Shown here: in pieces, positions 19,719-39,764 of the stretch
Layout of the letters: every line of letters starts with the position of its first letter
Position numbering within the stretch: the first letter of the stretch is position 1
Assembly (NCBI GenBank): GCA_011525745.1
Contig: WYBU01000015.1
Span: 1 to 64,000, forward strand
DNA from: Planctomycetaceae bacterium
GTDB taxonomy: Bacteria > Planctomycetota > Phycisphaerae > UBA1845 > UTPLA1
Reading direction: 5' to 3'
Length of the DNA stretch: 64,000 bases
The notes under the pieces: model-generated
The model's input: only the letters and a program-made list of their open reading frames with translations
Databases searched by the model: none
Told to the model about the DNA's origin: nothing
Position numbers and translations under genes: made by a program

Positions 19719-19727
19719 GATTGACCA

Positions 19728-20825: not shown

Positions 20826-20837
20826 CGTAAATGACTC

Positions 20838-22838: not shown

Positions 22839-22877
22839 ATGGCGGTCACAGCATTAATCGACACACAGTCTATAGGG

Positions 22878-23426
22878 TTATGATACCGCCCTAGGGTCGG
22901 CTGTACGTTCCCCACAGTCGTGCAGCTCGGCTATGCGCGCCATGAAGGCCACCTCGTCCTTATCGCTCGTAATGTCCCACATCACAACATGCGGGTACTT
23001 CTCTCGAAGGTATGGCAAACACCTATTGAGCTTGCACTCAAACTTCCACATATATGTCACTAGCTTCCACGGAACCCGTTCCGGGCAGCTCACAGGCCGA
23101 TCGGACACATCGGTCCGTGCGTACATACTCCTTTTGAAAACACGCCACAAACATAGATATTTGGATCGCTTGAAATACAGCGCCGCATCTGCCCTTGCGA
23201 ACCGGAGCTCAAGAGACTCGAGGCAGTTGCCGTCAACAATCCACCGATCCTGATGGACAATCTGGCGTTGCACCGCCAGAAACTCAGAAGCCGCACGTGT
23301 ATTCCAGTTGGCAGTAAAATAATAGCAATCGAGATGAAATAGAGGAATGTTGAGTCGCTGACTAAGCGATTTAGCGAACGTGGACTTGCCACTCCCGGGC
23401 CGGCCAAATATGATAATACGTGTCAT
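22878..23426 (-). CDS. P-loop NTPase, small kinase-like (FlaR/topology-modulation type)
   Basis: A 182-residue protein with a clean P-loop GRPGSGKST at residues 8-16, then IPLFHLDCYYF and WIVDGNCLESL. This set is typical of the small adenylate-kinase-like proteins annotated as topology modulation protein or FlaR. It may phosphorylate a small substrate. The gene is 39 bp from the carbamoyltransferase and in the same direction. Its low GC suggests recent acquisition. Confidence 0.7.
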   Translation of the reverse strand: MTRIIIFGRPGSGKSTFAKSLSQRLNIPLFHLDCYYFTANWNTRAASEFLAVQRQIVHQDRWIVDGNCLESLELRFARADAALYFKRSKYLCLWRVFKRSMYARTDVSDRPVSCPERVPWKLVTYMWKFECKLNRCLPYLREKYPHVVMWDITSDKDEVAFMARIAELHDCGERTADPRAVS

Positions 23427-23554
23427 GCTATCACTGTCCTTGGTCCCAGGCAGCCACTGTATGCCTGTATGCCCGCACCTGGCGCCTATGCAAGTGCTCG
23501 GTCAGCGTTCACGAAAGACATAACTATGCGGTATCATTGTTACCATTTCCTTGG

Positions 23555-24634
23555 TCACCGGCCATATTCCAAGGCAGTGTTTATCTCTTGCAGGTGAAGC
23601 TTCTCGAGGTCTTCCCAGTTCGCATTGCACTTGTGCCTGGACTGCCCCAGGCATCTAAGCAGCCTGTGAAACGCAAACGTAGCCCAGTAGCACCCGAGGT
23701 TGTCGGCAGCTTGCGGGAGTCGTGCCAGATAAGATGAAAGAAACGCAGAAGTTGCCAACCCGGCAAGTTCCATGGAGTGCCTAGCCCCAGTATGAAAGGC
23801 GAAGAGCCGCAGCGTGAGAATAAATTCTGCGAGGTCCTTGGCCGGGTCAGATGGACGACACCGGTCCAGATCAATGACGCTCGTCGTATTAGCTCCTAAG
23901 AACACGTGGTCGTGGTTGTATCGTCCATGCGTAAGAACATAATCGCGGTCGCTCCTCAGGGTCGCTACGCGCTGGCCCAGTATCTTGATCAGGTCGCGAA
24001 TCATGTTTGCCTTGTCGGGGCGTCTCGCCACTACCTTGATCACGTGGTCCTCGGCCCAGTGGTGTCTGAGCGCATCTGAACCGAGTTCGGGCGATCCAAT
24101 GCGCAGCGTGGCGAGATGCAAAGCAGCAAGCCATTCAGCAGCCTCTTGGAACCGCGAAATCATGTCAACGGAACAATCGCCGTCGAAAGAAGCGCTGAGC
24201 GGAGTACCCTTTACACCCAGCATCAACAACAATGCGTGATCGGGGAAGTACGCCAGCGGCTCAGGCACCCTATAGCGCCCCGCGTCGTTGAAGCCATACT
24301 CCCAGAGCGCTTCATTGACCCTGAAGGAGCGACAACCGAGATCGTCGTGAAACAGCTTGCCAAATACCACAACATCCCGGTCAAATACGTACCGAATGGT
24401 GAGGCGCCCCGTACCGGTGTTCCGTACGATCTTCGCTTCGCAATCGGATGCGGTTCCGCTCAATCGAGACCCCAGAAGCGGGCAGAGTCGCGACTTGATG
24501 AATTCGACACTCGTAAGGGTTTGAGCTCTCAGCGTGAGCGCCCGTTTTAACCCTGAGGCTCCATGCTCAAAACTGATGCTTCGCGCAATCGGTGCCTGTA
24601 TGGACGGCAAGTGTTCTTGAAGGGCTGCGGTCAT
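23555..24634 (-). CDS. Aminoglycoside-phosphotransferase-fold protein, altered catalytic loop
   Basis: A 359-residue protein of the APH/choline-kinase fold. The catalytic loop reads LTHGRYNHDHVFL at residues 235-246; families of this fold usually have HGD, so the catalytic Asp position is Arg 238. The metal-binding Asp is kept as VIDLD (Asp 255), followed by DPAKDLAEF. It may be a pseudokinase, or use another residue such as Asp 242. The start is 20 bp after the SPASM radical SAM gene, suggesting one transcript. Aminoglycoside resistance is unlikely; a small-molecule or glycan substrate is more plausible. Confidence 0.7.
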   Translation of the reverse strand: MTAALQEHLPSIQAPIARSISFEHGASGLKRALTLRAQTLTSVEFIKSRLCPLLGSRLSGTASDCEAKIVRNTGTGRLTIRYVFDRDVVVFGKLFHDDLGCRSFRVNEALWEYGFNDAGRYRVPEPLAYFPDHALLLMLGVKGTPLSASFDGDCSVDMISRFQEAAEWLAALHLATLRIGSPELGSDALRHHWAEDHVIKVVARRPDKANMIRDLIKILGQRVATLRSDRDYVLTHGRYNHDHVFLGANTTSVIDLDRCRPSDPAKDLAEFILTLRLFAFHTGARHSMELAGLATSAFLSSYLARLPQAADNLGCYWATFAFHRLLRCLGQSRHKCNANWEDLEKLHLQEINTALEYGR

Positions 24635-24654
24635 CGCGTTCCAACCTTATTCGT

Positions 24655-25785
24655 TTAGCCAGGATGTAGCCCTTCAGATACGCCCTTAGTGAGGACAACA
24701 TGTGTTTCCCCGAGAACGAAATGTGGCTCCAAATCCGTATTCCTAAAACTGTAGCACGATTCGCATTTTGGAAACTGACCACGGCACGACGGATAGTCCG
24801 AGGTATGCACCGCTCGCAAGTGTTGCCAAGCGGGTGAGTTCCATATCTGGACAAAAGACTGCTTGTTAAGGTCGCCCAACAACAAATCGTCAAAATGCGG
24901 TCCAATCAGGTGGTCGCAATATCCGACACGCCCGTCATAGGTAACGCAAGCGTAACCCCACGGGTGGAAACACGGCGCATTCCGAGGTGCCACACCCAAA
25001 GATCCGAGTGCTGTCAAACCGATAACTCGGACTTCAAGCTGGCCTGCGCGGTCAACGAGTCTGCCAACGGCCTCGTCCACCTGTGTAACATGCCCGCGAA
25101 GAGATAACGGTGAATTGTGAGATACTGATACTGCAGAGAGCCGTATTTCCGATATGCCACAGTCAGACGCGAGTTCGGCGAGACGGAAGAGATCCGTGCA
25201 TGCAGGGCGTTGGAGCGTGGCCTGTATGCAGAGTCGCTCCGTACTACGCCAACGCTCATAATAGTTGTCGGCAAGTTGTTTAAGGTTGCTGCGGATCAGA
25301 CGCGCGTTAGCCCCCCTACGCAATTGCTGTAAGGTCTGGTCGTTGGCGGAATCGATTGAGACAGCCACGTAGGCGCGAGCGTGGCATAGCTCCTTCAACG
25401 CATCTGGACAGCGAAACGACAGATTCGAGACCACGCGAATTGCGCTAGCAAGAGTTGCTGCACGATGTAAGATCCTAGGGAAGTCATTGAGGATTAGGCT
25501 CTCACCCCAACCGCGTAGATCTATAAGTTCGGCCGTGGGGAAGAGTTGCTCCTCCACCTTACGGAGGATCTCAGATGGCATCGATGTGCCGGCAACGGAT
25601 ACCTTGGAAGATCGACACATTGGACACGCGAGGTTACAGCCGCGTGTAAGTTCGACAAGCACGTAGCGTGGAAGACTTGTCAGCACACGAGCACCTGTCC
25701 GGTACTCTTTAAGATTCAGGATTGCGTTCTCGAGTACGCGCGTTGAGAGTGACGCTCTGCATGTTGAGGACATCGTTTCGTTCAT
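24655..25785 (-). CDS. Radical SAM/SPASM domain protein
   Basis: A 376-residue enzyme with Cys 50, 54 and 57 (CNLACPMC) for the radical SAM cluster, IDLRGWGESLIL in the GGE-like region and a SPASM-type C-terminus (CFHPWGYACVTYDGRVGYC, later FPKCESCYSF). SPASM enzymes install thioethers or C-C links in peptides, or act on sugars. The ATG overlaps the stop of the upstream AAA ATPase as TAATG with GGAGGA before it, so it is translationally coupled to the ubiquitin-like operon although its composition is lower in GC. Confidence 0.85.
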   Translation of the reverse strand: MNETMSSTCRASLSTRVLENAILNLKEYRTGARVLTSLPRYVLVELTRGCNLACPMCRSSKVSVAGTSMPSEILRKVEEQLFPTAELIDLRGWGESLILNDFPRILHRAATLASAIRVVSNLSFRCPDALKELCHARAYVAVSIDSANDQTLQQLRRGANARLIRSNLKQLADNYYERWRSTERLCIQATLQRPACTDLFRLAELASDCGISEIRLSAVSVSHNSPLSLRGHVTQVDEAVGRLVDRAGQLEVRVIGLTALGSLGVAPRNAPCFHPWGYACVTYDGRVGYCDHLIGPHFDDLLLGDLNKQSFVQIWNSPAWQHLRAVHTSDYPSCRGQFPKCESCYSFRNTDLEPHFVLGETHVVLTKGVSEGLHPG

Positions 25786-26858
25786 TAGCGTCCTCCATGC
25801 TTCTCAGGTGTCGACGCATAGGCTGGTTGAGTACTTCCTGCTAACCAGGGCTGGAAATCCTCCCAGTTGATGGTTCGGCCGAAACCGTCGGGCCGCAACG
25901 CAGCAAGGAATGCGCGATCCGCTGCTGCCGCGACAACGCCGACGAGTTCAGCGCCGCACGTGCCTTCAGTCTGCTCAGCGAGGAGGTCGAGATCGACGTC
26001 GGCAGATACGGGCCGGAATGCAAGGCTTGCTGAGAGAATTTGACGACGAGCATCGCGGGCTGGCAAACCGATGAGGACCTTGGCGTCGAACCGCCCCGGA
26101 CGCAACATCGCAGGATCAACCATGTCGGGCTCGTTCGTCGCTCCCATGAGAAGGAGAACGTGGCCGCCGGGGGCTTTCGCGAGTCCGTCTACCTCACCGA
26201 GGATCTGAGATACCACGCGCCTCATGATCGTCGATCCATTCCGGCGCCGGCTTGGCACGAGCGCCTCGACCTCGTCGAGGAACAGCACGGCGCGCTTCTG
26301 TTGGCGGAGGGTCCGGAAGAGCCGGTCCACGTTGGCCTCCGCTTGACCGACCGCGGCGGTCATTATATCGCTCGGCCGAACGTGGTAAAAGGCGGCGTCG
26401 ACTTCAGTTGCGACGGCTTTGGCGAGCATCGTCTTGCCCGTTCCGGGAGGGCCGTACAGCAGCAGCCCGCCGCCTTGGCGGATGCCGAAGCGACTCGCCT
26501 CGGCGGGGTAGAGGACCGGGAGGATCATTCGCAGCCGAATCTCCTGCTTGGCGTCCTCCAAGCCGGCGATGTCGGCGAAGCGCACGTTCGGCTTCTCCGC
26601 GATCGGCCGGAAATCGACGTGCGTTGCACTCTCGGCTATTGCGCACAGCACCACGGGCCGATCCGCGGCCGGCTTGGGAACTTGCAGGCGGCGATGCCGA
26701 ACGAGAGCAACGAATCGGCGGGCTATCCAGCAACCAACGCGATATGCCCCGGCGAGGACGTGCGATAGCGCGGCTACGGAGAAGCTGAAGATGAAGTCCG
26801 CGAGACCTCGCCCCCTTCGCGCCCATCGTCGGCGGCATGCTCCTATGACATATGCCAT
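25785..26858 (-). CDS. Membrane-anchored AAA ATPase (FtsH/CDC48-like module)
   Basis: A 357-residue protein with a probable membrane segment at residues 20-52 and one AAA module: Walker A GPPGTGKT (136-143), Walker B VLFLDEVEAL (Asp 195, Glu 196), sensor LLLMGATNEP and Arg finger region RPGRFDAKV. There is no fused protease. The pore-loop position that is aromatic in FtsH (FVG) and CDC48 relatives (YVG) reads AAVG, so the usual threading aromatic is absent. The upstream M50-like gene is 17 bp away. It probably remodels or extracts substrates for the neighbouring proteases (inference). Confidence 0.85.
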   Translation of the reverse strand: MAYVIGACRRRWARRGRGLADFIFSFSVAALSHVLAGAYRVGCWIARRFVALVRHRRLQVPKPAADRPVVLCAIAESATHVDFRPIAEKPNVRFADIAGLEDAKQEIRLRMILPVLYPAEASRFGIRQGGGLLLYGPPGTGKTMLAKAVATEVDAAFYHVRPSDIMTAAVGQAEANVDRLFRTLRQQKRAVLFLDEVEALVPSRRRNGSTIMRRVVSQILGEVDGLAKAPGGHVLLLMGATNEPDMVDPAMLRPGRFDAKVLIGLPARDARRQILSASLAFRPVSADVDLDLLAEQTEGTCGAELVGVVAAAADRAFLAALRPDGFGRTINWEDFQPWLAGSTQPAYASTPEKHGGR

Positions 26859-26875
26859 TGCCGTCCACCTTTCGG

Positions 26876-27589
26876 TCAGAAAGAACCGCCGCCAACCACG
26901 CCCAATCGAAGAACAACGAGTGACACGAAAAAGGCGATACAGGCAAGCACCACGGTCCAGTGGAGCGCCGACCGCCCGCTGAGGCGGGCCAGCACCTCGG
27001 CATCAGAACCCGTGCCGCTTGCGGTTACCGAGATCACCAGGAGCGTCCAGATCGCTCTGGCACCCTGCCAAATCAGAATCACGCCCATCAGGTTCAACAG
27101 GAAGCGCGTCGCCAAAGCACCGGGAAACAGCGAGCTGCACAATCCCAAAAGCGCCGCGACTGTGGCTCCGACGGCGGCCGTGTGCAGGTCGCCGGCCTTG
27201 AGCGTTGAAAGGGCGAGTAGTACGGCGAGCACCTGGAGCGTCAGGACCAGGGCATCGGCTTGGGCCGATCGAGCCAGGAAGACCGCGCCGAGCACAATCG
27301 TGCCGATGTAGCCGGCGGCCGCCACGGCCTTGCGGTTGCCCCCGCTGGTGATGGCCACTCCGCCCCAGTCACCCACGTGGAAACGATGAAAGTTGCCGCC
27401 GGTTAGCAAACTGACGACGCCGTGGCTGACCTCGTGGGCGTAAGTACCGACCTTCGTCGCGTGCCGCCGCCAGACCACTGGCAGCATGCACAAGAAGCCG
27501 GCGCTGGCAAGTGTGAGCAGCACGAATGTGCCGCCATTGTCGCCGGAATCGGCAAAGGCCATTAGATTGAGGTTTATGAACAAGTTCAT
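26876..27589 (-). CDS. M50-like intramembrane metalloprotease
   Basis: Starting at the ATG at 27589 (GGAGATCCC just upstream) gives 237 residues. HEVSH at 52-56 within TYAHEVSHGVVSLLTGGNF is the zinc-binding HExxH of the M50B-like family. Five or six hydrophobic segments follow. M50 enzymes cut within or near the membrane. A matching Asp ligand of an LDG-type motif is not obvious; ILIWQG is in a plausible region. Context with the AAA ATPase, E1, E2 and JAMM proteins suggests processing at the membrane. Confidence 0.78.
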   Translation of the reverse strand: MNLFINLNLMAFADSGDNGGTFVLLTLASAGFLCMLPVVWRRHATKVGTYAHEVSHGVVSLLTGGNFHRFHVGDWGGVAITSGGNRKAVAAAGYIGTIVLGAVFLARSAQADALVLTLQVLAVLLALSTLKAGDLHTAAVGATVAALLGLCSSLFPGALATRFLLNLMGVILIWQGARAIWTLLVISVTASGTGSDAEVLARLSGRSALHWTVVLACIAFFVSLVVLRLGVVGGGSF

Positions 27590-27630
27590 CGGGATCTCCT
27601 TCCAGTCTCGCTTGCGCGATCGGTGGCTCC

Positions 27631-29283
27631 TCACCGCGCCGACGCTTGCTGGAGAATGCGTGCCGCTTCCGCCTCGTAATCGATCTCGCCATTTACCGGC
27701 GGCGCAACAATCCGGCCTTGAGCATCGGCGCAGCGGGGCGGCGTCGACCGCAATGTCACCTCACGGATGCCTAGCGTGCGGCCTTCCACCATGAGGATGA
27801 AACTGACCTTTGTGCTTTCGCGGCCATTGACAAGCTCAGGCGGCACGAATTCTCCGGGTAGCAACTGGACCGACTTGCGGTCCAGCACCAATGTCCCCTC
27901 GACACCGCCGACGGGTTCGCCGTCGACACAGGTGCCCATCGTCATGCGAAAACCGGCGCGCGGGGAGGGAAGGTCCGAGGTCAACTTCACGACCGGGCAC
28001 AGAGCCCGCAGGTTTCGCAGATAGGCTACCCTTCCCACGGGGGTTGCCCGCCGGCCTGAACGGGCAATCCCCGCGATCTCAAAGCTATCGAGTTTCAGCC
28101 CGGCGAGAACCTGTTCAAAAGAAGTAATCACGAACGGGATTCGGGCGAGTTGGCGATCGTCTACGCTGAGGCAGAATTCCCATCGGCCGAGCTTTCGGGC
28201 GATGTCGTCGCCGGCGATGGGGCGACTCACCGGCGAGAACATCATTCGTCCATCGACCAGTTGCAGCGGCAACTCAGTGCTTTCAACGTTCTCGCGCTTG
28301 TCCACGTTCGCCAAATCCAGGCGAAGTCGCATGTCGACGAACTTGGAAGGATGAAAGCCCTTTGGCCGGATCACGGCCGTCGGGACTACCGCCTCGGTAT
28401 CCGGGAAGATCACCTTCTCCGGTGCGACCCTGTCGCCTTGCAAGGCGATCAGACGAACATCAGAAGCTTGCAGATCGGCAACGAGGTCCGCCCTCGTGAC
28501 GACCGCGATGGAAGTTGCGGCGAGGTACTTGCCGGTGTTCCTCAGGATCAGCCGCGTTTCCCAGGAACCTGAATGCGCCAGCAACTCGGCGATCTGGTCC
28601 AGCTGGAACCAAAGGCTCAGCCGCGGGGCACGCGGCATTTCGATTGATTCATGCAACGTCCGCCAGATCGCCCCATCCGGCCGACGGACTTCCATGTCGA
28701 TGTGCAGGGGGTAGACGTCCGGCCGGACAGGCAGAGCGAGGTGGGCCTTGATCGAGATGCTCTCCGAATCCGGGTATGCCTTGCCGTCGGGCTGATCCTG
28801 ACCGTCACGGCACTGGACACGATGGATCAAGCTGACGGCGCGGACCTGCCGGAACTTCATCTGGAAGCGCCAGATGCGCCACGCCCGATCCAGGCGTCTG
28901 ATCAGCCAGATCAGGAAGAAGATGGTCAGCAGGCCGGCGAAGATCGACGCCGCATAAGGCAACGCGGCGTGGATCAGGGCGCGGACGCGGGCGCGATTGA
29001 GATTGCTTCGGGTCTGCTCAGCCGAACCGGGAAGCCGAAGTGACTCGCGGTAAGCGTCCACCGCTTCGTCGAACCGGCCGCAGGATTCCAGAGCAACGCC
29101 GAGGTTGTTGTATCCCTCGGCCGTGGGCAGCTCGGCGTTCGCCTGCTGGTACAGTTCTGCTGCGCGCGCATGGTCGCCAGCCGCAAGGGCTTGCGCTGCC
29201 TGATCCAGCGGGTGCTCCGCCAGGCAAGCGCACGCTACCGCCAGTACGCTGAAGATCGCCGGGATAGACGTTGCCTTCGTCAT
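27631..29283 (-). CDS. Secreted/membrane TPR protein with beta-sandwich repeats
   Basis: From ATG 29283, 550 residues. A signal-like N-terminus (MTKATSIPAIFSVLAVACACLA) is followed by TPR units (LAAGDHARAAELYQQA, YNNLGVALESCGRFDEAVDAY) and a transmembrane segment near residues 108-130 (YAASIFAGLLTIFFLIWLI). The remaining 400 residues look like three related beta-sandwich units whose ends read WETRLILRNTGKYLA, WEFCLSVDDRQLA and VSFILMVEGRTLG. It probably presents protein-binding surfaces on both sides of the membrane and acts as scaffold for the operon's conjugation proteins. The family is not recognised. Confidence 0.65.
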   Translation of the reverse strand: MTKATSIPAIFSVLAVACACLAEHPLDQAAQALAAGDHARAAELYQQANAELPTAEGYNNLGVALESCGRFDEAVDAYRESLRLPGSAEQTRSNLNRARVRALIHAALPYAASIFAGLLTIFFLIWLIRRLDRAWRIWRFQMKFRQVRAVSLIHRVQCRDGQDQPDGKAYPDSESISIKAHLALPVRPDVYPLHIDMEVRRPDGAIWRTLHESIEMPRAPRLSLWFQLDQIAELLAHSGSWETRLILRNTGKYLAATSIAVVTRADLVADLQASDVRLIALQGDRVAPEKVIFPDTEAVVPTAVIRPKGFHPSKFVDMRLRLDLANVDKRENVESTELPLQLVDGRMMFSPVSRPIAGDDIARKLGRWEFCLSVDDRQLARIPFVITSFEQVLAGLKLDSFEIAGIARSGRRATPVGRVAYLRNLRALCPVVKLTSDLPSPRAGFRMTMGTCVDGEPVGGVEGTLVLDRKSVQLLPGEFVPPELVNGRESTKVSFILMVEGRTLGIREVTLRSTPPRCADAQGRIVAPPVNGEIDYEAEAARILQQASAR

Positions 29284-29293
29284 GGTTGCCCTG

Positions 29294-30178
29294 TTAGTTT
29301 CCGCTGCACACTGCCTTGGCAAGGATGTCCTCGGCGGCCGCGTTGATCTGGGCCTCAGTCATGCCGCCGGCGCCGCAAATCAAACAGCACGGATCTCGAG
29401 GGATTTCCCAGATGTCGCTCGAAAGCATCCGCGGAAATAGGCCCTCGACCCGTCGGTTCCCGAACAAGACGTAGTTGCCCTTGAAATCCGGCGCCGAATC
29501 ATGTCGGCCGAGCATAGTCAGCAGCCCAACGCGGGCCTGAATCAAAGCGATCTGCGCGATGTCCAAGTTCAGGGCGGCCGTGGAATTCTCTATGCCATCT
29601 GGGTTCGTGTAGTCGAACGTCTGGGGCGCCTGCGACTCATCGAACCGTCCAGAGCGGTTCAGAAAGGCGGCCATGCAGGCGTAGCAGGCACCGCCGTCGA
29701 CTACCCTTCCAACTTCACCGCCACAGCCACCGTCGAAGACGCCAGCGAAAACCAGTGTGACGCCAGCCGCGACGGCCTCCTCATTGATCACGTTCTTAGC
29801 AGGCTCGTTGTCGACGCAGCAGTGCACCTGCGTGCAACGGCGAATAATCGTCGCAAGCCGATCCCGGTCCTTGACGACATCCATCGAGATGACCTCGATT
29901 TCGCAGCCGGGGTTGCTATTGAGGATGTGGTCCCGAAGAGCTTCCCCCTTCGGTCGGCCCAGATCCTTGTAACCGAGGACGTGGCGGATGATATTGTGTT
30001 CCTCCAGGCATTCATCTGGCCGGTCAATAAGGATGATCGTGCCGACGCCGAACCGAGCCGCTTCCTCGGCGACTCGCGCGCCGCCAGACCCCACGCCAAT
30101 GATGGCCCATACTTGCTGTTGGGCGACCTCGGGTTTCAGAATCGCCCGCGTCCTCTTGAACAATTCGTCACGGTTCAT
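29294..30178 (-). CDS. E1-like ThiF-family adenylyltransferase
   Basis: A 294-residue ThiF/MoeB/E1-type protein. The nucleotide site is IIGVGSGGARVAEEAARFG (Gly 28, 30 and 33). Other family marks are Asp 52, Arg 65 in EHNIIRHVLG and GRPKGEAL. Cys pairs for zinc are GACYAC and CCLICG. The family activates the C-terminal carboxylate of a ubiquitin-like protein by adenylation; a catalytic Cys could be one of the HCCVD pair. It lies next to E2-like and JAMM genes, so it is the presumed activating enzyme of the system. Confidence 0.88.
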   Translation of the reverse strand: MNRDELFKRTRAILKPEVAQQQVWAIIGVGSGGARVAEEAARFGVGTIILIDRPDECLEEHNIIRHVLGYKDLGRPKGEALRDHILNSNPGCEIEVISMDVVKDRDRLATIIRRCTQVHCCVDNEPAKNVINEEAVAAGVTLVFAGVFDGGCGGEVGRVVDGGACYACMAAFLNRSGRFDESQAPQTFDYTNPDGIENSTAALNLDIAQIALIQARVGLLTMLGRHDSAPDFKGNYVLFGNRRVEGLFPRMLSSDIWEIPRDPCCLICGAGGMTEAQINAAAEDILAKAVCSGN

Positions 30179-30221
30179 GATTCGCCTCTTCAGTTGGCCG
30201 ATCGGCCGTCGAAGCCCACGT

Positions 30222-30629
30222 TCAGTTGCTCACGGCGTCCGGCACAGGCCACTTGCTCGTGCTCAGCCACACCAGGAACGCATAGAACCAACGCTGCGCC
30301 ACACCGACACACAACGCAGCAGTGTCTTTGCTCGGGCACCAGATATTTCGATTGCGTTTGCTTTCGCTGGGATGGCGCCAGCAAATGCGGTTGCCGGGCA
30401 GGAGATGCGGAGTACCGCTCGGCAGAGAAGTTAGCGCCACGATGTCCGGCGCATCCGACGGGTAGCCGGACGGATAGACGATCTTGATGGGCAGCCGATT
30501 CCCGCCCTCGGCGTGGAGCGTGAGCTCCCAGTGGAGTTGCCCGGATGCATCGCTGCGGAGTCTGGGCTCAAGGGCCGACCAGCGCTCCATCATTGCCGCG
30601 TGCTCCAAAACGAGTCGTTTCGAATCCAT
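30222..30629 (-). CDS. E2-like ubiquitin-conjugating fold protein
   Basis: Starting at 30629 with GAGGAAG upstream gives 135 residues. It has the E2-like KIVYPSGYPSDAPDIV, a PHLLPGNRICW stretch in which His 75 and Cys 83 occupy the places of the E2 His and active Cys, and a C-terminal helix-rich part (AQRWFYAFLVWL). This matches the prokaryotic E2-like proteins found beside ThiF and JAB genes. It would accept the modifier from the E1. It is smaller than eukaryotic E2 (about 150) by a little. Confidence 0.75.
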   Translation of the reverse strand: MDSKRLVLEHAAMMERWSALEPRLRSDASGQLHWELTLHAEGGNRLPIKIVYPSGYPSDAPDIVALTSLPSGTPHLLPGNRICWRHPSESKRNRNIWCPSKDTAALCVGVAQRWFYAFLVWLSTSKWPVPDAVSN

Positions 30630-30687
30630 GTCATTCTTCCTCGGGCAGACCAAGCCCATGCCGTACCAGCCGATGTGTCAGCAGTTC

Positions 30688-30879
30688 TCACGGTTGGTAG
30701 TGCGTGTCGAATTTCCCAATTCGGTTCCGGCGATCATCGGGTGAGGCACTTACAGGTGCTGTGCCTTCCAATTCGCCTGTCTCGCTGAAGGCCAAGCCTT
30801 CGCTACTGGATCGGGACTGTTCCATCGCTCGCCGGATTTCCTCGGCGCGCTCCTTCGTCAAAGGGGTAAAGCTTCCCAT
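30688..30879 (-). CDS. Small disordered protein, 63 aa
   Basis: The ATG at 30879 lies inside the end of the JAMM gene (22-bp overlap) with GGAGAT seven bases before it. The protein opens with a helix (PLTKERAEEIRRAMEQSR) and continues as a Ser/Glu/Asp-rich disordered tail, ending HYQP. It has no beta-grasp pattern and no terminal Gly-Gly. It is encoded between the JAMM peptidase and the E2, exactly where a modifier or adaptor could be expected. It could be a Pup-like modifier needing processing, or merely an adaptor; both are inference. Confidence 0.6.
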   Translation of the reverse strand: MGSFTPLTKERAEEIRRAMEQSRSSSEGLAFSETGELEGTAPVSASPDDRRNRIGKFDTHYQP

Positions 30880-32384
30880 GGCTCATCTCCAATCGGCCCG
30901 GATTCCTTCATCCCCACCGACGCGGACCGCCCGCCAGCGGGGGAATCAATCCTGTTGCCGGCGCATACGCTGCGCCGAGCACTCATTTCTCGTTCGATGT
31001 CAAGAATGATGGGCGTGAACCACACGAGGCCGGGCGTCCACGCGCCATTCAGATACGAGGGCTGGAACTGCATCACCTGATGCGCGTTGTCCTCCACGAA
31101 CACGTCCGGCCGTTGTCGCGGGTCGGCCGAAAAAGCGATCATGGCCGTGAATCCACCAGTCTTGTGCTTCATCACGATGCACGGGCGGCGGGCCTGATCG
31201 CTAGTTGCTTGTTGGACCAGCCCCATGTGGTAGTTCGCCAAGCGACGCAGATTCTCGAAGTCCAACCGCGTCCGCACCGGGTCGGCTGCTGCGAAACCTC
31301 GAAGTTCAGCCGCCGCCGAAATGACCGCCCCGTCCACGACTTCCGGACGAAAGTGACGGTACTGGTACGCGCTCGCCTTCCCCAAGTAATAGAAGTCGAG
31401 CTTCAAACCGTCGTGATAAAGACTGTCAGGAGACCGGTTACCGCGATGAGTCGATGCCACCGTGGCAATGGTGAACACCATCTCCTGGCTGTGGCTCTCG
31501 CGCACGTTGGCGGAGTCAGTTCGCAGATCGCCGGCGGAGCAGGAATCCAAGCTGCCTGGATGCAGATGCGCATCGCCGATGAACATCGCATCGGCGTCGA
31601 TGAGCTGGAGAAGTTCCAGTTCACGCTGCTGATACTGACGGTCAGCCTGGTGATGTCCGCCGGAACGGACGGAACTGGGTCCCTCATCGATCAATCCGCT
31701 GACCATCATGACCCGGGAAGGTCCGTCGCCGAGGATCTTCCCGACCAGTGCGTAACCGGTTTCCACACCGCCGCGCTGCCGCCGCGATTCGTTGATGCCT
31801 TTTACCAGGCGGTCGATCACGCCGGACAGAAACTGCACACGTGGAATTGCTGGCTGGCGCGTAGGGCGCGGAGTCGGCGATACCAGCGGCCGAGTATCAA
31901 CGACGGACGACTGGTTCGTGGAGGCCCGATCCGCAATATCCTGACGCACTGTCGAGTCAGGCGAATCGAACGGCACTTCGGCTTGCGAACTACCCGATGC
32001 GAGCCGTGCCAATCGCACCCACATGAAGGCGATGCACCCACCCAACAAAGCGACAAGGGCAATTGCAACTCCCTGAGCCCGCGTGAATGCAGCTTCCTGT
32101 CGCGTGACTCGTCGATCCAGATCGCCCAGCCAATCCAGTGCCGTGAAGGCCGTCGGGGCGCTGGTCTGCGCCGTGGCCGCCATCTCCGGCGACTTGGATT
32201 CCTCTGGGTCCGCCGATGCATGCGCACCTACCGGCCCGGACTGCGTAACGCCGTAAGGTGCGGCTGCCGGCCGCTGGGCTGTCTCGTCGCCACGGCGCGC
32301 TGCCCATTCCTGCGAATAGGTGGGTGTCGTTGCTGCCGCTAGGACTGCAAATCCGGTAATCAAATTCAGAATTTGGCGGTTCAT
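30858..32384 (-). CDS. Membrane-anchored JAMM/MPN metalloprotease
   Basis: A 508-residue protein with a signal-like N-terminus (residues 1-25), an extracytoplasmic low-complexity stretch, a transmembrane helix at about 104-128 (GVAIALVALLGGCIAFMWV) and then a JAB1/MPN domain. The JAMM zinc site is complete: Glu 208 (VETGYALVG), His 273 and His 275 (DAHLHPG), Ser 283 and Asp 286. This fold removes or processes ubiquitin-like modifiers. With N-out/C-in topology the peptidase faces the cytoplasm. A C-terminal 150-residue region may be another domain. Confidence 0.86.
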   Translation of the reverse strand: MNRQILNLITGFAVLAAATTPTYSQEWAARRGDETAQRPAAAPYGVTQSGPVGAHASADPEESKSPEMAATAQTSAPTAFTALDWLGDLDRRVTRQEAAFTRAQGVAIALVALLGGCIAFMWVRLARLASGSSQAEVPFDSPDSTVRQDIADRASTNQSSVVDTRPLVSPTPRPTRQPAIPRVQFLSGVIDRLVKGINESRRQRGGVETGYALVGKILGDGPSRVMMVSGLIDEGPSSVRSGGHHQADRQYQQRELELLQLIDADAMFIGDAHLHPGSLDSCSAGDLRTDSANVRESHSQEMVFTIATVASTHRGNRSPDSLYHDGLKLDFYYLGKASAYQYRHFRPEVVDGAVISAAAELRGFAAADPVRTRLDFENLRRLANYHMGLVQQATSDQARRPCIVMKHKTGGFTAMIAFSADPRQRPDVFVEDNAHQVMQFQPSYLNGAWTPGLVWFTPIILDIEREMSARRSVCAGNRIDSPAGGRSASVGMKESGPIGDEPWEALPL

Positions 32385-32401
32385 CGTTCTTCCCTCGGTT
32401 T

Positions 32402-33025
32402 TTACTGAACGCTCTTGGCGTCGCGGGTGATTCGCTGAAATCGAACCTCCGTTGACTCGTCACCCGTTTCGGCTCTCAGTTCGTCCGACGGCCTTATTGG
32501 TTCTCCGGCCTCGACTAGGTTCACGCCGTTTCGGTTGGCGATCTGCCGAGCCTCCAACGACGCAAGTTGTGCCTCCAACTCCGCCAGGTTCTGGTAGCTC
32601 TCGGCCTGTTTGCGGTCCTCAGCGTCGACCGATCGAACCAGTGCAAAGGCGACCGGGTTTTGCTCCTGGAGACGTTTTAGATCTCCGGCATCATCCGCCT
32701 CACGAAGTCGTTCGCGGAGCTGCCTGAGCAAGTCCTGGCGTCTCTGAGCCGCGGTGATCAGCCGATCCTTCGCTTCGGTGATCCGCCGCCTCACTGCTTC
32801 CACGCGACCGGATAGATCGGAAGCGTAGACCTCAGCAGGCGAAGGACGGCGAGCCAGCACGACCCGAGGCCAAACCTTCGCCCACAGCGGATCGGCCAAT
32901 CCGCCTTGATCCGCCAGAGCGATCAGGCAGGAGACTCCCGCGATCACACAAACTGCCATCGCCATTTTCCGAATCATCTTTGCGGCGCTCCTCAGCGCTG
33001 GCGGCGTGCCTGTGAGGCAGTTCAT
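32402..33025 (-). CDS. Signal-anchored coiled-coil protein, 207 aa
   Basis: The start at 33025 overlaps the upstream stop as ATGA; an ATG at 32977 is an alternative. A hydrophobic stretch (MAMAVCVIAGVSCLIALA) acts as signal or anchor. Residues 70-170 form a coiled coil rich in Arg/Glu/Leu (DRLITAAQRRQDLLRQLRERL; LAELEAQLASLEARQ). The tail is charged. No family known. It pairs with the next upstream coiled-coil protein in the operon. Confidence 0.62.
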   Translation of the reverse strand: MNCLTGTPPALRSAAKMIRKMAMAVCVIAGVSCLIALADQGGLADPLWAKVWPRVVLARRPSPAEVYASDLSGRVEAVRRRITEAKDRLITAAQRRQDLLRQLRERLREADDAGDLKRLQEQNPVAFALVRSVDAEDRKQAESYQNLAELEAQLASLEARQIANRNGVNLVEAGEPIRPSDELRAETGDESTEVRFQRITRDAKSVQ

Positions 33026-33894
33026 TCCGCGTCGCCCTTGATCGCCTCAACGGCCGACGTCCGCGACTGTGGAGCCGAAGGGACGGAGCCGTCCTGCTGA
33101 ACGTCGCCAAGCATCCGCGTGATCTCAGCCGATGCATCCTGGGTCACAATCATTGGTGCGTAGTCGATGCGGAACTGGCCCATGCCGGCTGAAAGCCTCG
33201 CGTTGGCGTGACGTTCCTTGGTAGAGACCCTTCGCTCGAAGTTCCGCACGGCCTTTTCGAGTTCAGAGTCGGCGGTCAGCGGCGCACCCGCGATGGCGTT
33301 GGCAAGCTGGGCGACCTGAAGCCGGATGTCGGCGTTGACATTCCTCTGTTCCAGACGAGCCATGCCGCTCTTCAACTCGGCCAACCGCTTTCCAGCCTCG
33401 GCCAATCCGGCCCGGCCCTGTTTGATTGCAGCGTCAAGATCAGCCAGCAAGCTTTCATTGAATGAAACTCCCTCTCGCATCCGATCGACTTCCTGCACAC
33501 GTTCCAACGCGTCGGCGTTCACCTCAGCAAAGGAATAAGTCTGCCGGCCAATCACATACTTCTGGCGCTTCTCGTCAAGCAATGCCTTGATGCGCTTCAG
33601 GAGGTCCATCTCGGTCTGGAGCTTGGACTGCGCGTCTTCAATGCCGCGCGCCGTTGCCTCCCGCCGCCCCTCCAGGTCGGCGACCTTGTCCTCGAAGGCG
33701 AGCACATTCTCCTGCTCCTTCTGAATCAGGGCCTCGATGCGGGCCCGCTCCAGTCGCATGGGAGCGCGATCATCGGCCTCCTGGTTGACCATGTCCCGCG
33801 CCCCGGCCACATAGGATGTCGTCTTCTCCCAACCGAGCACGATGACCGCGAGCACGAAGACGATGCCCACAGCAATGACGATTCGCTTCAACAT
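33022..33894 (-). CDS. Membrane-anchored coiled-coil protein, 290 aa
   Basis: A single N-terminal transmembrane helix (residues about 4-22, IVIAVGIVFVLAVIVLGW) is followed by nearly 200 residues of coiled coil (RARIEALIQKEQENVLAFEDKV; LLKRIKALLDEKRQK). The tail includes ITRMLGDVQQ and is disordered. It is reminiscent of PspA-like or membrane scaffold proteins, but I would not assign a family. Stop and next start overlap by 4 bp (ATGA), so the two coiled-coil proteins are translated together. Confidence 0.65.
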   Translation of the reverse strand: MLKRIVIAVGIVFVLAVIVLGWEKTTSYVAGARDMVNQEADDRAPMRLERARIEALIQKEQENVLAFEDKVADLEGRREATARGIEDAQSKLQTEMDLLKRIKALLDEKRQKYVIGRQTYSFAEVNADALERVQEVDRMREGVSFNESLLADLDAAIKQGRAGLAEAGKRLAELKSGMARLEQRNVNADIRLQVAQLANAIAGAPLTADSELEKAVRNFERRVSTKERHANARLSAGMGQFRIDYAPMIVTQDASAEITRMLGDVQQDGSVPSAPQSRTSAVEAIKGDAE

Positions 33895-34003
33895 GGTTCG
33901 TTACTCCTTGAGTTTCGCTCAACCGTTTCCGCCATCACCGGGGATGGCACTCCATTTCTTTTTTGAGTGTTGGAACTACCACTGTCCAATGCACCCGTCT
34001 TTG

Positions 34004-35032
34004 TCACACCAACGTTTTCGTATCTGACTCCCCCCAGTCGACGCCGTGGCGGAGTTTCCGCTTCATCTCATCGAACTCGCTGGCCGAGATCGCGTCCTTG
34101 TCCAGTTCCGACAGCAGCTGCTCCAACACATCATCTGCCAGGCGAACCCGGGCGGTGAGCTTCGTCGAGCCGTCGTAATCGCCACGAAAAATGAATCCCA
34201 ACTGTTCCAACCCGGCGACGGCCTCGACGACCTTGCGGCAGTTGCCAGGGTAGGACTGCGGCGAGAGCAGCTGAGCGAGATCGCGCACCGAAATCCCATC
34301 GAAAGGATGAATGGCCAAACCGAAAAGCTGGTCGATCAGAATCCCCTCGCACAGCACGCGCTGCACGTCATCCAGGTCGTTCGCAATGGGTCCAAGCGGA
34401 TCGAGGCCAGCAGGGGTGACGGCTGCCTTGGAGCGGTTGATCGCGGCCTGCCGGAGGACGGCGTCCAGGGCGCCGTCGGCGGAGTATGGGGCGCAGCGAT
34501 CGTCGTCGCCGAAGCCGATCTTCAATCCGCAGGCTTGGGCCGCCGCCTTGCGGAGGCGCCACTCAGCGAGCAGATCCGTCAGGCGATCACGCTTACAGCG
34601 GTAGGCCGGCGCGAGGCCGATTTTCTTGGCGCCGCCGGACACGGCCTGCGACGCTGCGCCCGCCTGATGAATAAGGGCGTCGACACGAACCGACGGCTCC
34701 CGAAGGATCGCACCGATGAGGACCTCGAAGGCGATGACCTGATCGCCGACCCGCAGTTTCCGCACGATTGCAGCCAGCGCCGAAGTCATGGGCATCGGAT
34801 CCGCAACGACCTCGAAGCGCTCGGGGGCCGTCACGCCGTTCAGCACGGCCTGCGGCGTCGCGCTGCCGACCTGGCGCAGGCAAAGCGCCACCTCTTCCGG
34901 ATAGACGAGGATGGCCGCCTTGAGGACGTGAATCGCGTCCAACCGGCTGCTGCCCTCGCTCCGAGCGATGGCCTTTCCCAGGCCGACGGCTTTGTCCGCC
35001 TTCTCATCCAGATTGACGTTGGCCTTACCCAC
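34004..35032 (-). CDS. Clp-N-like repeat plus winged-helix adaptor
   Basis: GTG 35032 follows GGAGGAGA at a good distance; 342 residues. Two Clp-N-type repeats are visible: LGKAIARSEGSSRLDAIHVLKAAIL with EEVALCLRQVG, and IVRKLRVGDQVIAFEVLIGAIL with VRVDALIHQAG. After residue 220 a winged-helix-like region follows (ISVRDLAQLL, KVVEAVAGLEQLGFI). In ClpA/ClpC the Clp-N domain docks adaptors and substrates, but this protein has no ATPase module. I infer an adaptor that brings substrates to the AAA ATPase of the same operon. Confidence 0.6.
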   Translation of the reverse strand: MGKANVNLDEKADKAVGLGKAIARSEGSSRLDAIHVLKAAILVYPEEVALCLRQVGSATPQAVLNGVTAPERFEVVADPMPMTSALAAIVRKLRVGDQVIAFEVLIGAILREPSVRVDALIHQAGAASQAVSGGAKKIGLAPAYRCKRDRLTDLLAEWRLRKAAAQACGLKIGFGDDDRCAPYSADGALDAVLRQAAINRSKAAVTPAGLDPLGPIANDLDDVQRVLCEGILIDQLFGLAIHPFDGISVRDLAQLLSPQSYPGNCRKVVEAVAGLEQLGFIFRGDYDGSTKLTARVRLADDVLEQLLSELDKDAISASEFDEMKRKLRHGVDWGESDTKTLV

Positions 35033-35050
35033 GGGGATCTCCTCCGCGAA

Positions 35051-35566
35051 CTAGAGCGTCTCCTCGTCTTCCGCCTCCGGCACGGGCTGGCGGAACTGCT
35101 CAATGAACTTCTTCGCGACCTCCGCCGGCACGCCGGCATCGACCATCCCGACATGGGTCGCCATCAAATGGACTTCGTGGGTAGTCTCGATGGCGATTCC
35201 CACCAGCCGGGCGAATACCTCCGGGCTGGGATCAGCCGCGCCCCCGTCCTGGCAGGCGTGGTTGATCTCGAACATCACCTCTCCGTCGCGGGCGTCGGTG
35301 CCCACCTTTCCGATAAGCAGGCGGTAGTTGATATCCTGCAAGATGCGGGGCAGTTCCGAGTTGGGCGAGCGAACCTGGGCGATTTCGGGAACGCGAATCT
35401 TGAGGGCCAGCTGGCCCTCGATCGGATCGACGATCAAGACGTGCGGCTCGGCCGGATTGATGCGGTTGGCGAAGCTCGCCCGCAAGTACTGATCCTTGCA
35501 GACCTCGATCTCCTTGATCTCATCCTGCTTTTCCAGAAGTTCCTTGCACGTGTCCTTAGTGATCAT
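35051..35566 (-). CDS. YbjN-like (type III chaperone-fold) protein
   Basis: The ATG at 35566 has GAGGAGATAACC before it and is preferred to the upstream Met at 35596; 171 residues. The fold pattern of strands and helices (ASFANRINPAEPHVLIVDPIEGQLAL; PRILQDINYRLLIGKV; EVMFEINHACQD) resembles YbjN/secretion-chaperone-like proteins. It is the first gene of the operon. A chaperone or regulatory role for other members is inferred. Confidence 0.55.
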   Translation of the reverse strand: MITKDTCKELLEKQDEIKEIEVCKDQYLRASFANRINPAEPHVLIVDPIEGQLALKIRVPEIAQVRSPNSELPRILQDINYRLLIGKVGTDARDGEVMFEINHACQDGGAADPSPEVFARLVGIAIETTHEVHLMATHVGMVDAGVPAEVAKKFIEQFRQPVPEAEDEETL

Positions 35567-35596
35567 GGTTATCTCCTCGCCAGGTACATTCCGCAT

Positions 35597-36069
35597 CCAT
35601 GGAAAACGACGATACGGATGCCGGGGTCAACGGTCGAGGGAACACGACGGAGAGCGGCGGAACGCGACCGGAGAGGCGCTGTTCGAGCACCCGCAGAGCG
35701 CGGCGCATGCCGACCCGGTCTTCGCGCCGCGCGGCGAGGCGGCTCTCGACGCTCGGGACAGCATCGTTGCCGCCGAGAAGTTGGAACCGCGCACCGGCAT
35801 CTCCCCTCGTTCTGTCCAAGCGTGTTCTCCACGCCGCGCTCGACCGCTGATGCTTGCTCCCAGATCGGGCACGTTCGCGTCGGCTATTGTCCTCCCCCAG
35901 CACCACCAGCCCAGGGAACGCAAAGGAGAGCGGTGGAACTTGGCCGGAGAGTCTGACCCCCCTGCATTCCCGCCCTGTTCCGCTCCTTTCCGCCGCATTC
36001 CGTTCACGCCTCCGCCGAACAGCCGTATCCTGCTGGCAGACTCGACGAGCTGCCTCTGGGAGCGGAACC
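35597..36069. repeat. Divergent intergenic region with two 27-bp repeats
   Basis: A 473-bp region between the divergent ubiquitin-like operon and the symporter gene. It contains two direct copies of a 27-base unit, at 35649-35675 and 35925-35951, identical at 23 positions (GGAGAGCGGYGGAAC then four variable bases then CCGGAGAG). The second is followed by GTCTGACCCCCC. A partial inverted relative (GTTCCGCTCCTTTCCGCC) is at about 35970-35990. This is REP-like. The promoters for both transcripts must lie here, but none is clear. Confidence 0.5.
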
Positions 36070-37518
36070 GTGGAAAACAACTGGAACATCACAGCGATCG
36101 GCGTGTTCTTCATCGTGCTGGTCGCGACGTACCTCATCGCGTGGAAGGGCCGCCGTGATGCAGGCGACGAGGCCGAACAGCAAATTGGCAAGCAGCGTCT
36201 AAACCGGTGGCTGGTTGGTCTTAGCGCCGGCGCAGCTGCGAATAGCGGGTTCGTTGTCACCGGAGCCGTCGGGCTGGGCTATTCCTATGGCGTCCACTGG
36301 CTCCTGCTGCCGTTTGGCTGGTTCCTCGGCGACCTCGTTTTCTGGACGTTCTTCCCCCATCGCATCAACGCCTACGGTGCCCGCACGAGCGCGACAACGC
36401 TGGCGGACATCATCACGCATGGCCTCCCAATCGGACGACTTCACCCGCTCACACTTGCATGTTCCGCGATCGTCGTGCTGTGTCTTGGGGGCTATACCAT
36501 GGCGCAATGGGTTGCGGGTCAGAAATTCCTCGAAGGCGCCTTCGGGATCTCTGGGCACTCGACACTCCTCATCTTCGCCGCGGTGATCATCGCCTACTCC
36601 GCCCTCGGCCGCTTCCGCGGCTCAGTCTACGTTGACACGCTGCAGGCAGCGACACGCATCCTTGGAACGTTCATCGCGCTGGGTACGGTGTGCTGGGTGG
36701 CAGCGCGCGATCCGGCCAGCGTTGCTGAGCGCATTCGGAGTGCTGGCGAGGGCTTCCTAGACCCGTTGGGTGGCGGCACCGTTGCATCTGCGGTCGGATT
36801 CGTCCTTGGGTACGCTGCCGCGGCGCTCGGATTCGGATTGGCCCAACCCCAGGTAACGTCGCGGTATCTGGCAGCCAGCAATCCCCGCGAGGCCCGAGCA
36901 GCCCGGTGGATTTACATGGGTTATGTTCAGTTGACTTGGGCCACCATGACGCTCTTCGGCGTCCTCCTCCGTGGGGTGATGCCCAACCTTCCCGATCCCG
37001 AGAAGGGCCTGACGGTGTTCGTCAGCGCGACCCTACCAGCAGTTTTCGTGGGACTGATCCTCGCGGACATCTTCGGCGCCATCGCCTCGACGGGGAACAG
37101 CCTCCTCGTGGCAATGGCCCAAGCGGCCCGCGACCTGTTCCCCGGAGGCAATCGCCGAGCCCGCATCGAGTGGTTGGTGGTTGGGCTGGGGCTGGCTACC
37201 ATGTTGGCGGCTTGGGGCCTTGAGAGCCAGACGACCGTGTTTGGGTTGGCGATTACATCCGTCTCATTCATGGCGGCTGGCCTGGCCCCGGCGGTTGCTA
37301 TCAAGGTGCTCGGGTGGCGCCACTCCGCGTCTACTCTCACGGCAGGCGTCTTCGTGGGGATCGGCGCGGCTGTCGCGTGGAATCTGGGAGGGCTGTCCGG
37401 GGCGCTTAACGAGGCGGCCGTTGGCATTCCCCTAGGCTTCCTCGTAAACGCCGTCCTCGCCCGCCAACTGCCGCCGCGAACGCTCGTGTCGTCTTTCCCG
37501 AGTGAGGAGACCGCATGA
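36070..37518 (+). CDS. Sodium:solute symporter (SSS family)
   Basis: Starting at GTG 36070 with GGGAGCGG upstream gives 482 residues with about 12-13 hydrophobic segments. SSS marks include the GYSYGVHWLLLPFGWFLGD segment, GGYTMAQWVAGQKFLEGAFG, the SVYVDTLQAATRIL stretch and the ADIFGAIASTGNSLLVAMAQA region. This is the fold of PutP (proline) and related sodium symporters. The transported solute cannot be told. The next gene starts within the stop codon (ATGA), so methyltransferase and symporter are translationally coupled. Confidence 0.85.
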   Translation: MENNWNITAIGVFFIVLVATYLIAWKGRRDAGDEAEQQIGKQRLNRWLVGLSAGAAANSGFVVTGAVGLGYSYGVHWLLLPFGWFLGDLVFWTFFPHRINAYGARTSATTLADIITHGLPIGRLHPLTLACSAIVVLCLGGYTMAQWVAGQKFLEGAFGISGHSTLLIFAAVIIAYSALGRFRGSVYVDTLQAATRILGTFIALGTVCWVAARDPASVAERIRSAGEGFLDPLGGGTVASAVGFVLGYAAAALGFGLAQPQVTSRYLAASNPREARAARWIYMGYVQLTWATMTLFGVLLRGVMPNLPDPEKGLTVFVSATLPAVFVGLILADIFGAIASTGNSLLVAMAQAARDLFPGGNRRARIEWLVVGLGLATMLAAWGLESQTTVFGLAITSVSFMAAGLAPAVAIKVLGWRHSASTLTAGVFVGIGAAVAWNLGGLSGALNEAAVGIPLGFLVNAVLARQLPPRTLVSSFPSEETA

Positions 37519-39014
37519 TCCGCCAATCGACAAGCAAACGCGTGGGGATTCGTGATTGGCTGGCCAAGAGAGAACTGCTCAAGGCGCTCTACGGCTGTTC
37601 CACGGTTAAGGGCCTCTTCTTGACCATGGTTTCCAGTTGTTACAAGAACAATTTGCCATCATCACCTCCACGCAGTCGCAACGACAGCGGAACCACATTC
37701 CTTGAAGCTGTACTCGACGCTCAGCGGCGTTGGGTGAGCAGCAGACCGACGGATGACATGTATTTGCAACTGTGGGAGAGAATCCGAAGCGATCTGAATC
37801 TGGACTGTGTCGTCGTTAAGTTGTTCGAGTGCTCGTTCGAGGAGTTTGTTGACCTTCTTGGCAACCAGGTGCTGCGGGATTATGCGGAGGCGCTTGCTGA
37901 GGACACGGATTCCCCGCTGACCGATGCCCAAAGAAGAAAGTTACTGACGCTGTTTAGCGGCGCGTCGCTCCCAGCTCCCGGTTACGGCTACTGTGTGCAT
38001 CGAGACCGAAGGACGCACTACGAAAGCTCACTTTCGGCGCTACAAGACGGCCGGTATCCCATCTGGCGATTCTATAACGCGCCGGAGGCCGCCAGAGCAT
38101 GGACTACCTTAATCGAGAGCGAGAACTATCGCATGTACTTGGACTGCCTGTGCTCGCTCAAGCAGTTTGTTCAGGAGGCGCAGTGGATCGGGGCTCTTAG
38201 GGAGCGTCGGTACAACGCCGCTGTGAGTCTAGCGGGCGGGGGCTCTCCGGAGAAGGATCTAGTGCTTGTGAAGAGCCTTGTAAAGGCATTAGATGACCAT
38301 CGCGGAGAGATCGAGTATACCATTGTCGACATCAGCGATGCGATGATTCATGAAACGGAGCGTTTTCTTGGCCCGCGCCTACGAAGTGAACAACTGAATC
38401 GTGTTCGTGTCACCGACCTCAGTCTGGATATCTTGCAACTCGAAGGACGATTCGTGCGCGGCGATTCGTGGCAGCATGTGGTGTGGGCGATCCTTGGCGG
38501 GACCATCGGCAATCTGCCGGAGCGGGAGTTCTTCAGGTCCCTCAAGGAGCCCTCGAGGAGCGGTGATCTGCTTATAGTCGGGCTGGATACCCATGACGAC
38601 GAGGGATGGGAGCAATTCGAGAGGCGAATGAAGGGGCAGTACGGATGCAAGGAACTGGATTTCCTGCTTGAAGCGCAGCCGCGTAGGATCGGACAGGCCG
38701 CCATGCCGATCCCGGTCGAGGACAGCGAGGTGCCGAATGCAGTCGAGCGCTCGCGGTCATGCGTCGATGGACCAATTGTGGAGGTAGGCGTCCGGAAACG
38801 TGCGGATGGGGATCCGGACCACCATGTCTGCAATTCATGGATCGCTGAGTTCAAGTATCGATCTGACGACAGGAGCAAGGTGCTGGGTTCGACACGCTAC
38901 GTGCTCGCGGAATTCCTCGCGTTCGCGCGAGAAGTTGGTGGATGGGAACATGTCGGCACCACAGCAGCACCAGACGGATCGACCTTTCGGCAGTTGCTGC
39001 TCCGACGGATCTAA
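37515..39014 (+). CDS. EgtD-like SAM-dependent methyltransferase with N-terminal extension
   Basis: A 499-residue protein. From about residue 215 it follows the EgtD/Methyltransf_33 pattern: VSLAGGGSPEKDLVLVKSL (SAM motif), YTIVDISDAMI, ILGGTIGNLPEREFF and LLIVGLDTHDDEGW, with the usual C-terminal WEHVGTTAAPDGSTFRQLLL. Family members methylate histidine in ergothioneine synthesis or related amines. It is longer than EgtD (about 320 aa) because of an unrecognised 200-residue N-terminal region. ATGA overlap with the symporter implies a related substrate. No EgtB is in view. Confidence 0.7.
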   Translation: MIRQSTSKRVGIRDWLAKRELLKALYGCSTVKGLFLTMVSSCYKNNLPSSPPRSRNDSGTTFLEAVLDAQRRWVSSRPTDDMYLQLWERIRSDLNLDCVVVKLFECSFEEFVDLLGNQVLRDYAEALAEDTDSPLTDAQRRKLLTLFSGASLPAPGYGYCVHRDRRTHYESSLSALQDGRYPIWRFYNAPEAARAWTTLIESENYRMYLDCLCSLKQFVQEAQWIGALRERRYNAAVSLAGGGSPEKDLVLVKSLVKALDDHRGEIEYTIVDISDAMIHETERFLGPRLRSEQLNRVRVTDLSLDILQLEGRFVRGDSWQHVVWAILGGTIGNLPEREFFRSLKEPSRSGDLLIVGLDTHDDEGWEQFERRMKGQYGCKELDFLLEAQPRRIGQAAMPIPVEDSEVPNAVERSRSCVDGPIVEVGVRKRADGDPDHHVCNSWIAEFKYRSDDRSKVLGSTRYVLAEFLAFAREVGGWEHVGTTAAPDGSTFRQLLLRRI

Positions 39015-39073
39015 CCGCCGTCCAGGCCGTTTAGGATCGTTCGAGAGTTGTGAGCGAGGTGTGTGGGTGCATT

Positions 39074-39727: not shown

Positions 39728-39764
39728 TCTTTGATCCGAGGCCTGCGGCGGGAAAGTTAGCAAG

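Follow-up and report, generated by a model that had tools for sequence, protein, structure and literature searches.

A conserved 63-residue protein as candidate tag of a planctomycete E1-E2-JAMM cassette without its own beta-grasp modifier

Ubiquitin-type enzymes normally pair with a beta-grasp tag, CBASS being an earlier exception. In the stretch of 64,000 nucleotides analysed here (the window), one operon encodes E1-, E2- and JAMM-type enzymes, and a preliminary description had found no beta-grasp protein ending in Gly-Gly beside them, naming the only small gene as candidate modifier. What, then, would these enzymes conjugate?

The operon and its enzymes

The operon lies on the minus strand, from 35596 to 25785, and encodes in this order a YbjN-like protein, proteins of 342, 290 and 207 aa, the JAMM protein, the small protein, E2, E1, a TPR/membrane protein, an M50B-like protein and an AAA ATPase; adjacent genes mostly abut or overlap. 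The JAMM protein (508 aa; 30858-32384, minus strand) has a single hydrophobic segment at about residues 100-118, a putative membrane anchor. It matched the PADLOC JAB model at 4.6e-5 and Pfam Prok-JAB at 0.011, which is below the cut-off; its residues E208, H273-x-H275 and S283-x2-D286 are consistent with the JAMM motif. The E2 (145 aa; 30222-30659, minus) matched the PADLOC E2 model at 1.1e-4 and carries an invariant cysteine, Cys93; an alternative start, M11 (30629), is preceded by GAGGAA. The window E2 had no Pfam family at E<0.2, and a four-sequence E2 profile (A2) found UBE2W-type E2s in the PDB at 4.5e-5.

The E1 (294 aa; 29294-30178, minus) is a ThiF-type adenylating enzyme (Pfam ThiF, 2.4e-25), whose profile (A1) matched MoeB (6.8e-21), MccB (1e-18) and ThiF (1.3e-17) in the PDB. 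Four cysteines (165, 168, 265 and 268) are invariant across four E1 sequences, one of them N-terminally short; they form two CxxC pairs that likely bind zinc, and these sequences share no other invariant cysteine. A classical E1 thioester is therefore not evident, and direct transfer from the adenylate to Cys93 of the E2 would be possible. Residues typical of JAMM, E2 and adenylating enzymes occur in the window proteins. Lying side by side and encoding these active-site residues, the three genes form an E1-E2-JAMM cassette, the JAMM protein scoring below its Pfam cut-off.

No ubiquitin-like Pfam match was found for any of the 11 operon proteins scanned. At 25000-36500, 11 ORFs of at least 45 aa end in Gly; not one of these has Gly-Gly at its end or is a predicted gene. 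A hidden Gly-Gly gene among ORFs of at least 45 aa in this interval was thus rejected. The lack of a beta-grasp modifier claimed in the preliminary description therefore holds for the operon, with the qualification that a Multi_ubiq gene lies outside the window on the same contig (see below). As a side observation, radical SAM/SPASM, APH-type kinase, carbamoyltransferase, DUF6625 and sialyltransferase-like genes lie downstream (19206-25785).

A conserved small gene between the JAMM and E2 genes

The small ORF (63 codons; 30688-30879, minus) lies between the JAMM and E2 genes and begins with a 22-base overlap with the end of the JAMM gene. Its start is preceded by TTGGAGATGAGCC-ATG, in which a GGAG ribosome-binding site lies inside the JAMM gene, just as first described. 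In a near-identical operon from Phycisphaerae bacterium Bin_14R (L023, apparently the same genome as G623), the small ORF differs by four substitutions in 192 nt, three of them at third positions, with one amino acid change (S44I) and a dN/dS of 0.10. A genome from another family of Planctomycetota (G097) has the order JAMM, small protein, E2, E1 and membrane protein as in the window, and its small protein, 65 aa long and in the same operon slot, is a clear homologue (BLASTP E 4e-9, 40% identity; z 12.2, with none of 1000 shuffles scoring as high). Identity between the two operons is 38% for JAMM, 52% for E2, 51% for E1 and 25.5% (E 1e-32) for the fifth protein. Because of this selection and this independent homologue, a chance ORF is ruled out; judged by sequence comparison, the small gene is a real and conserved core part of the cassette. 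Conservation in related operons, on which the preliminary description had staked its candidate, is thus found in both L023 and G097.

The remaining six operon genes had no match in the 20-kb G097 locus, so the core comprises five genes: JAMM, small protein, E2, E1 and membrane protein. The last of these (27631-29322, minus) is a TPR protein with hydrophobic segments at 17-35 and 116-134 and a long C-terminal part; a hidden beta-grasp domain was sought in it with AlphaFold2, and the model was unusable (pLDDT 35). The six genes missing from the G097 locus, all on the minus strand, encode the M50B-like membrane protein (26876-27634; Peptidase_M50B, 2.8e-22), the AAA ATPase (25785-26858; AAA, 1.2e-33), the 207-aa protein (32402-33025; hydrophobic N-terminus, no Pfam family), the 290-aa protein (33022-33894; hydrophobic N-terminus, coiled-coil match), the 342-aa protein (34004-35032; no accepted family) and the YbjN-like protein (181 aa; 35051-35596; YbjN, 2.6e-6).

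Among 392 genomes of the phylum, 14 had an E1 match at E 1e-12 or better and three matched the window E2 at 1e-5; profile A1 matched in 14 of 298 class genomes at 1e-20 and in 5 of 114 order genomes at 1e-40. The window type of operon was found in the window genome, G623 and G097 only, which amounts to two independent operons; this small number is where the case for conservation is weakest. No window-type match came from viral contigs searched with the E2, the E1, the second-group E2 (see below) and the window small protein, from plasmids searched with the window small protein, or from INPHARED phages searched with a second-group small protein. Window positions 26079-39729 and 12046-14367 are 92-97% identical to L023 although G623 belongs to another family, pointing to recent transfer or a binning error.

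AlphaFold2, run on two near-identical sequences, placed a helix at residues 9-22, strands of two residues each at 30-31 and 37-38, and a second helix at 47-53 (mean pLDDT 74, pTM 0.29). The small protein was originally seen as a helix with a disordered tail: the first helix and the absence of a beta-grasp fold agree with the model, whereas the strands and the second helix suggest more structure than that. The window small protein had no ubiquitin-like match in Pfam, NCBIfam or PHROGs, and the small proteins of the window type and the second group had no accepted match in these databases as far as scanned.

The tail of the window protein reads N-R-I-G-K-F-D-T-H-Y-Q-P, with Gly55 encoded at 30715-30717 (minus). 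The two independent tails, RNRIGKFDTHYQP and ANEVGKFARHYAGR, share Asn, Gly, Lys, Phe, His and Tyr and differ in their last residues. A conserved glycine near the C-terminus, for which an alignment of homologues had been proposed, is thus present: Gly55, within N-x-[IV]-G-K-F-x2-H-Y, is kept (RIGKF in the window, EVGKF in G097) in homologues that are just 40% identical. Neither protein ends in Gly or Gly-Gly as a beta-grasp modifier would; the window protein ends ...GKFDTHYQP and the G097 protein ...GKFARHYAGR, the encoded last residue being P in one and R in the other. Conservation is as strong after Gly55 (GKFxxHY) as ahead of it, a pattern not expected from simple cleavage of a precursor. 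The idea of a modifier exposed by cleavage after the glycine of RIGKF hence gains from the retention of Gly55 and loses from the conserved stretch behind it and the variable C-terminal residue.

Small proteins of a second group of cassettes

With the window E2 as query, tblastn found a Mesorhizobium plasmid encoding a 57-aa protein, E2, a Phd-E2 protein, ThiF, JAB and a metallo-beta-lactamase (MBL)-like protein; cassettes in two Planctomycetota genomes (G078 and G639) start in the same way. The small proteins of this second group (57-60 aa) are mutually close (z 28-34), are encoded directly upstream of E2, and share PNGEIR and LGGEY with variable ends (Y, YRR or YIEG). A ribosome-binding site was considered as the cause of LGGEY conservation and rejected: a GGAGG in the Mesorhizobium locus (L025) could serve E2, and in L065 a purine-rich site lies downstream of the LGGEY codons, so that conservation is more likely at the protein level. 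Two further features were seen in these loci. A Phd/YefM-antitoxin-like N-terminus is fused to an RWD/E2-like domain (L065:5320-5859, L021:9370-9882 and L025:8391-8921; assigned by Pfam on the L065 copy only), with Ser in the Mesorhizobium copy and Cys in the others. The Mesorhizobium E1 (L025, about 8627-9770) is split over two frames, so the ThiF gene may be broken or may contain a sequencing error.

Common ancestry of the window and second-group small proteins was not established by any of three approaches. Profile comparison (hhalign, A3 against A4 and A7) gave P values of 0.18 and 0.11, shuffles gave z of at most 1.0, neither significant, and the E1 tree recovered each type as a clade without deciding for or against their union (AU p 0.194). 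The window protein falls outside the ILPNGEIR/LTMREnLGGEY family (A7), with which it shares just a loose pattern of hairpin and tail. Besides the window protein itself, 1 in 100000 of its shuffles fits this pattern, which does not count as a test because it was devised after the sequences were seen.

Searching viral contigs with the second-group small proteins gave 7 contigs, and a second scan gave 13, these 7 among them. A clean copy was readable in 17 of 20 loci (10 of 13 contigs, 8 distinct sequences), and profiles A1, A2 and A6 found E1 or E2 in none of the 20. The phage homologues (IMG/VR; L072-L078 and L090-L102) read ILPNGEIR ... LTMREnLGGEY with a variable tail, some near genes that by eye resemble terminase or portal genes; in L078:4998-6065 (also L101) the LGGEY domain continues in frame into a longer protein, the next part of which is hydrophobic.

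Other cassettes vary at this slot. In G067 and G105 the N-terminal stretch of the E2 itself resembles a second-group small protein (six pairings, z 1.7-4.9) and includes, as judged by eye, M[RK]E[NR] a short way ahead of a glycine. The cassettes of L066, L069 and L106 leave no room for a small gene, their JAB and E2 genes being directly adjacent or overlapping. In G315 (L035:3881-4511) a 69-aa ORF ending ...KPWVFG immediately precedes an E2-like gene, and genes resembling JAB and E1 follow.

Candidate roles of the small protein

E1-E2-JAMM cassettes require a carboxyl terminus for activation. By analogy with CBASS and Bil, the best candidate within this operon is the 63-aa protein cut at Gly55, and we give its role as the conjugated tag of the cassette a probability of roughly 0.38. 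We infer the following route: the membrane-anchored JAMM protein would cut off the last eight residues, between NRIG and KFDTHYQP; E1 would adenylate the exposed Gly55; Cys93 of E2 would accept the small protein and hand it to a target; and JAMM would later detach it from that target. Several observations argue for this reading: a gene order shared by two operons, with roughly half of the E1 residues differing between them, a small ORF that is under purifying selection and retains the Gly55 motif, the match of the E1 profile to MccB, an enzyme described as acting on a seven-residue peptide, and, at the same slot in other cassettes, the terminal Gly in G315 and the LGG-EY tail of the second group. 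It is weakened by the conservation past the glycine (KF-x2-HY, and EY in the second group) together with the variable encoded C-terminus, by the small number of independent operons, by the lack of an evident thioester cysteine in E1, and by a second group whose homology is not significant, which includes phage copies with no E1 or E2 match nearby, and to which a stretch fused to E2 is related. The broader proposal, that E1, E2 and JAMM enzymes use a short, mostly disordered peptide as tag with its glycine exposed by JAMM, and that phage homologues of one branch may be decoys, we consider rather unlikely.

Known systems resemble the cassette in part. No CD-NTase was found among the scanned operon proteins, and PADLOC matches were to E1, E2, JAB and AAA-type models only. 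Type II CBASS (Cap2/Cap3) also combines E1, E2 and JAB, and Cap2 is described as attaching its cGAS, a CD-NTase without a beta-grasp fold, by a single Gly/Ala at the C-terminus, with Cap3 cutting a fusion behind that residue (PMC10097602); the window, in contrast, has no CD-NTase or SAVED gene, its E1 and E2 are separate genes, and its candidate tag is 63 aa long with an internal Gly. BilABCD likewise has separate E1, E2 and JAMM genes and a small protein, and BilC uncovers BilA's reactive glycine, as JAMM would here; BilA, however, has two ubiquitin-like domains (PMC11354881), and none was detected in the window operon. Rows 6a to 6e of PMC1779556 describe E1/E2/JAB operons, and the small proteins named in the part consulted are beta-grasp proteins. 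The multiubiquitin cassette of row 6e has E1, an E2-like protein and JAB in one operon, whereas the window operon is without Multi_ubiq, has a JAMM gene unfused to E1 and an E2 that keeps its Cys. Row 6a has the enzyme set of the window and no ubiquitin-like gene, but as an E2-E1-JAB fusion with a metallo-beta-lactamase; the window genes are separate, with no MBL gene. The MBL-like gene of the second-group cassettes recalls row 6a (by eye; no Pfam match at 0.01). Literature searches confined to open-licence papers turned up no account of a non-beta-grasp gene of 57-65 aa preceding E2.

Pup, about 60 residues long, has Gly-Gly before its C-terminal Gln/Glu, and it partners PafA/Dop-type enzymes, unlike the window protein with its E1, E2 and JAMM partners. 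The early comparison with Pup stands: the two are alike in size and in being largely disordered, and the window protein lacks the C-terminal Gln/Glu (PMC3511204).

The main rival reading, barely less probable, casts the small protein as a cofactor that assists E2, or E1-E2, non-covalently: a former N-terminal extension, now separate, by which the enzyme is positioned or regulated, the real tag being another molecule. Its position directly upstream of E2 in three window-type loci, three second-group loci and G315 favours this, as do the E2 fusions in G067 and G105, conserved residues that extend beyond the glycine (the main objection to the tag), and N-terminal extensions that regulate E2s elsewhere (PMC11354881). 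The fusions, however, connect E2 with the second group only, comparison with the window protein giving z -0.6 and 0.8; the second-group homologues on phage contigs have no E1 or E2 profile match beside them; and the cofactor reading provides no tag for the cassette. Tag and cofactor cannot be told apart on this evidence.

Distinctly less probable is a beta-grasp tag supplied in trans. The Multi_ubiq gene on the window's own contig (C132:92276-92473, 9e-16) lies about 62 kb from the operon, and ThiS-family genes, possible housekeeping MoaD/ThiS sources, occur in four of the five genomes searched, among them the window genome (3), G623 (2) and G097 (5); G639 has none. Multi_ubiq, however, is part of a complete multiubiquitin cassette (L088:10169-12657, corresponding to about 92.2-94.7 kb of C132) with its own Prok-E2_E (1.3e-32), a JAB-E1 fusion and DUF6527, and was found in one of the five genomes, the window genome, with no match in G097 or, despite its near-identical operon, in G623. 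It is therefore disfavoured as the cognate tag. Of the three ThiS-family genes of the window genome, the two inspected adjoin ORFs that by eye resemble molybdopterin- and thiazole-synthesis genes.

Still more doubtful is that the fifth core protein supplies the tag with its C-terminus, in the manner of the CD-NTase in CBASS (PMC10097602). This protein is conserved in both operons, but its last residues, ...QASAR in the window and ...LRAG in G097, have no terminal Gly/Ala in common. The least probable reading is a RiPP-like one, in which the ThiF-type enzyme modifies the small protein as a precursor peptide. Enzymes of this type are described as acting on peptides in RiPP pathways, and the radical SAM/SPASM gene shares one base with the end of the AAA gene; a RiPP cluster, however, would not be expected to include E2 and JAMM genes, and the alignment with L023 (26079-39729) does not extend to the radical SAM gene.

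If the sole small conserved partner of the cassette is indeed a 63-aa peptide-like protein, this would point either to a wider substrate range of E1-E2-JAMM enzymes or to an unrecognised partner of E2.
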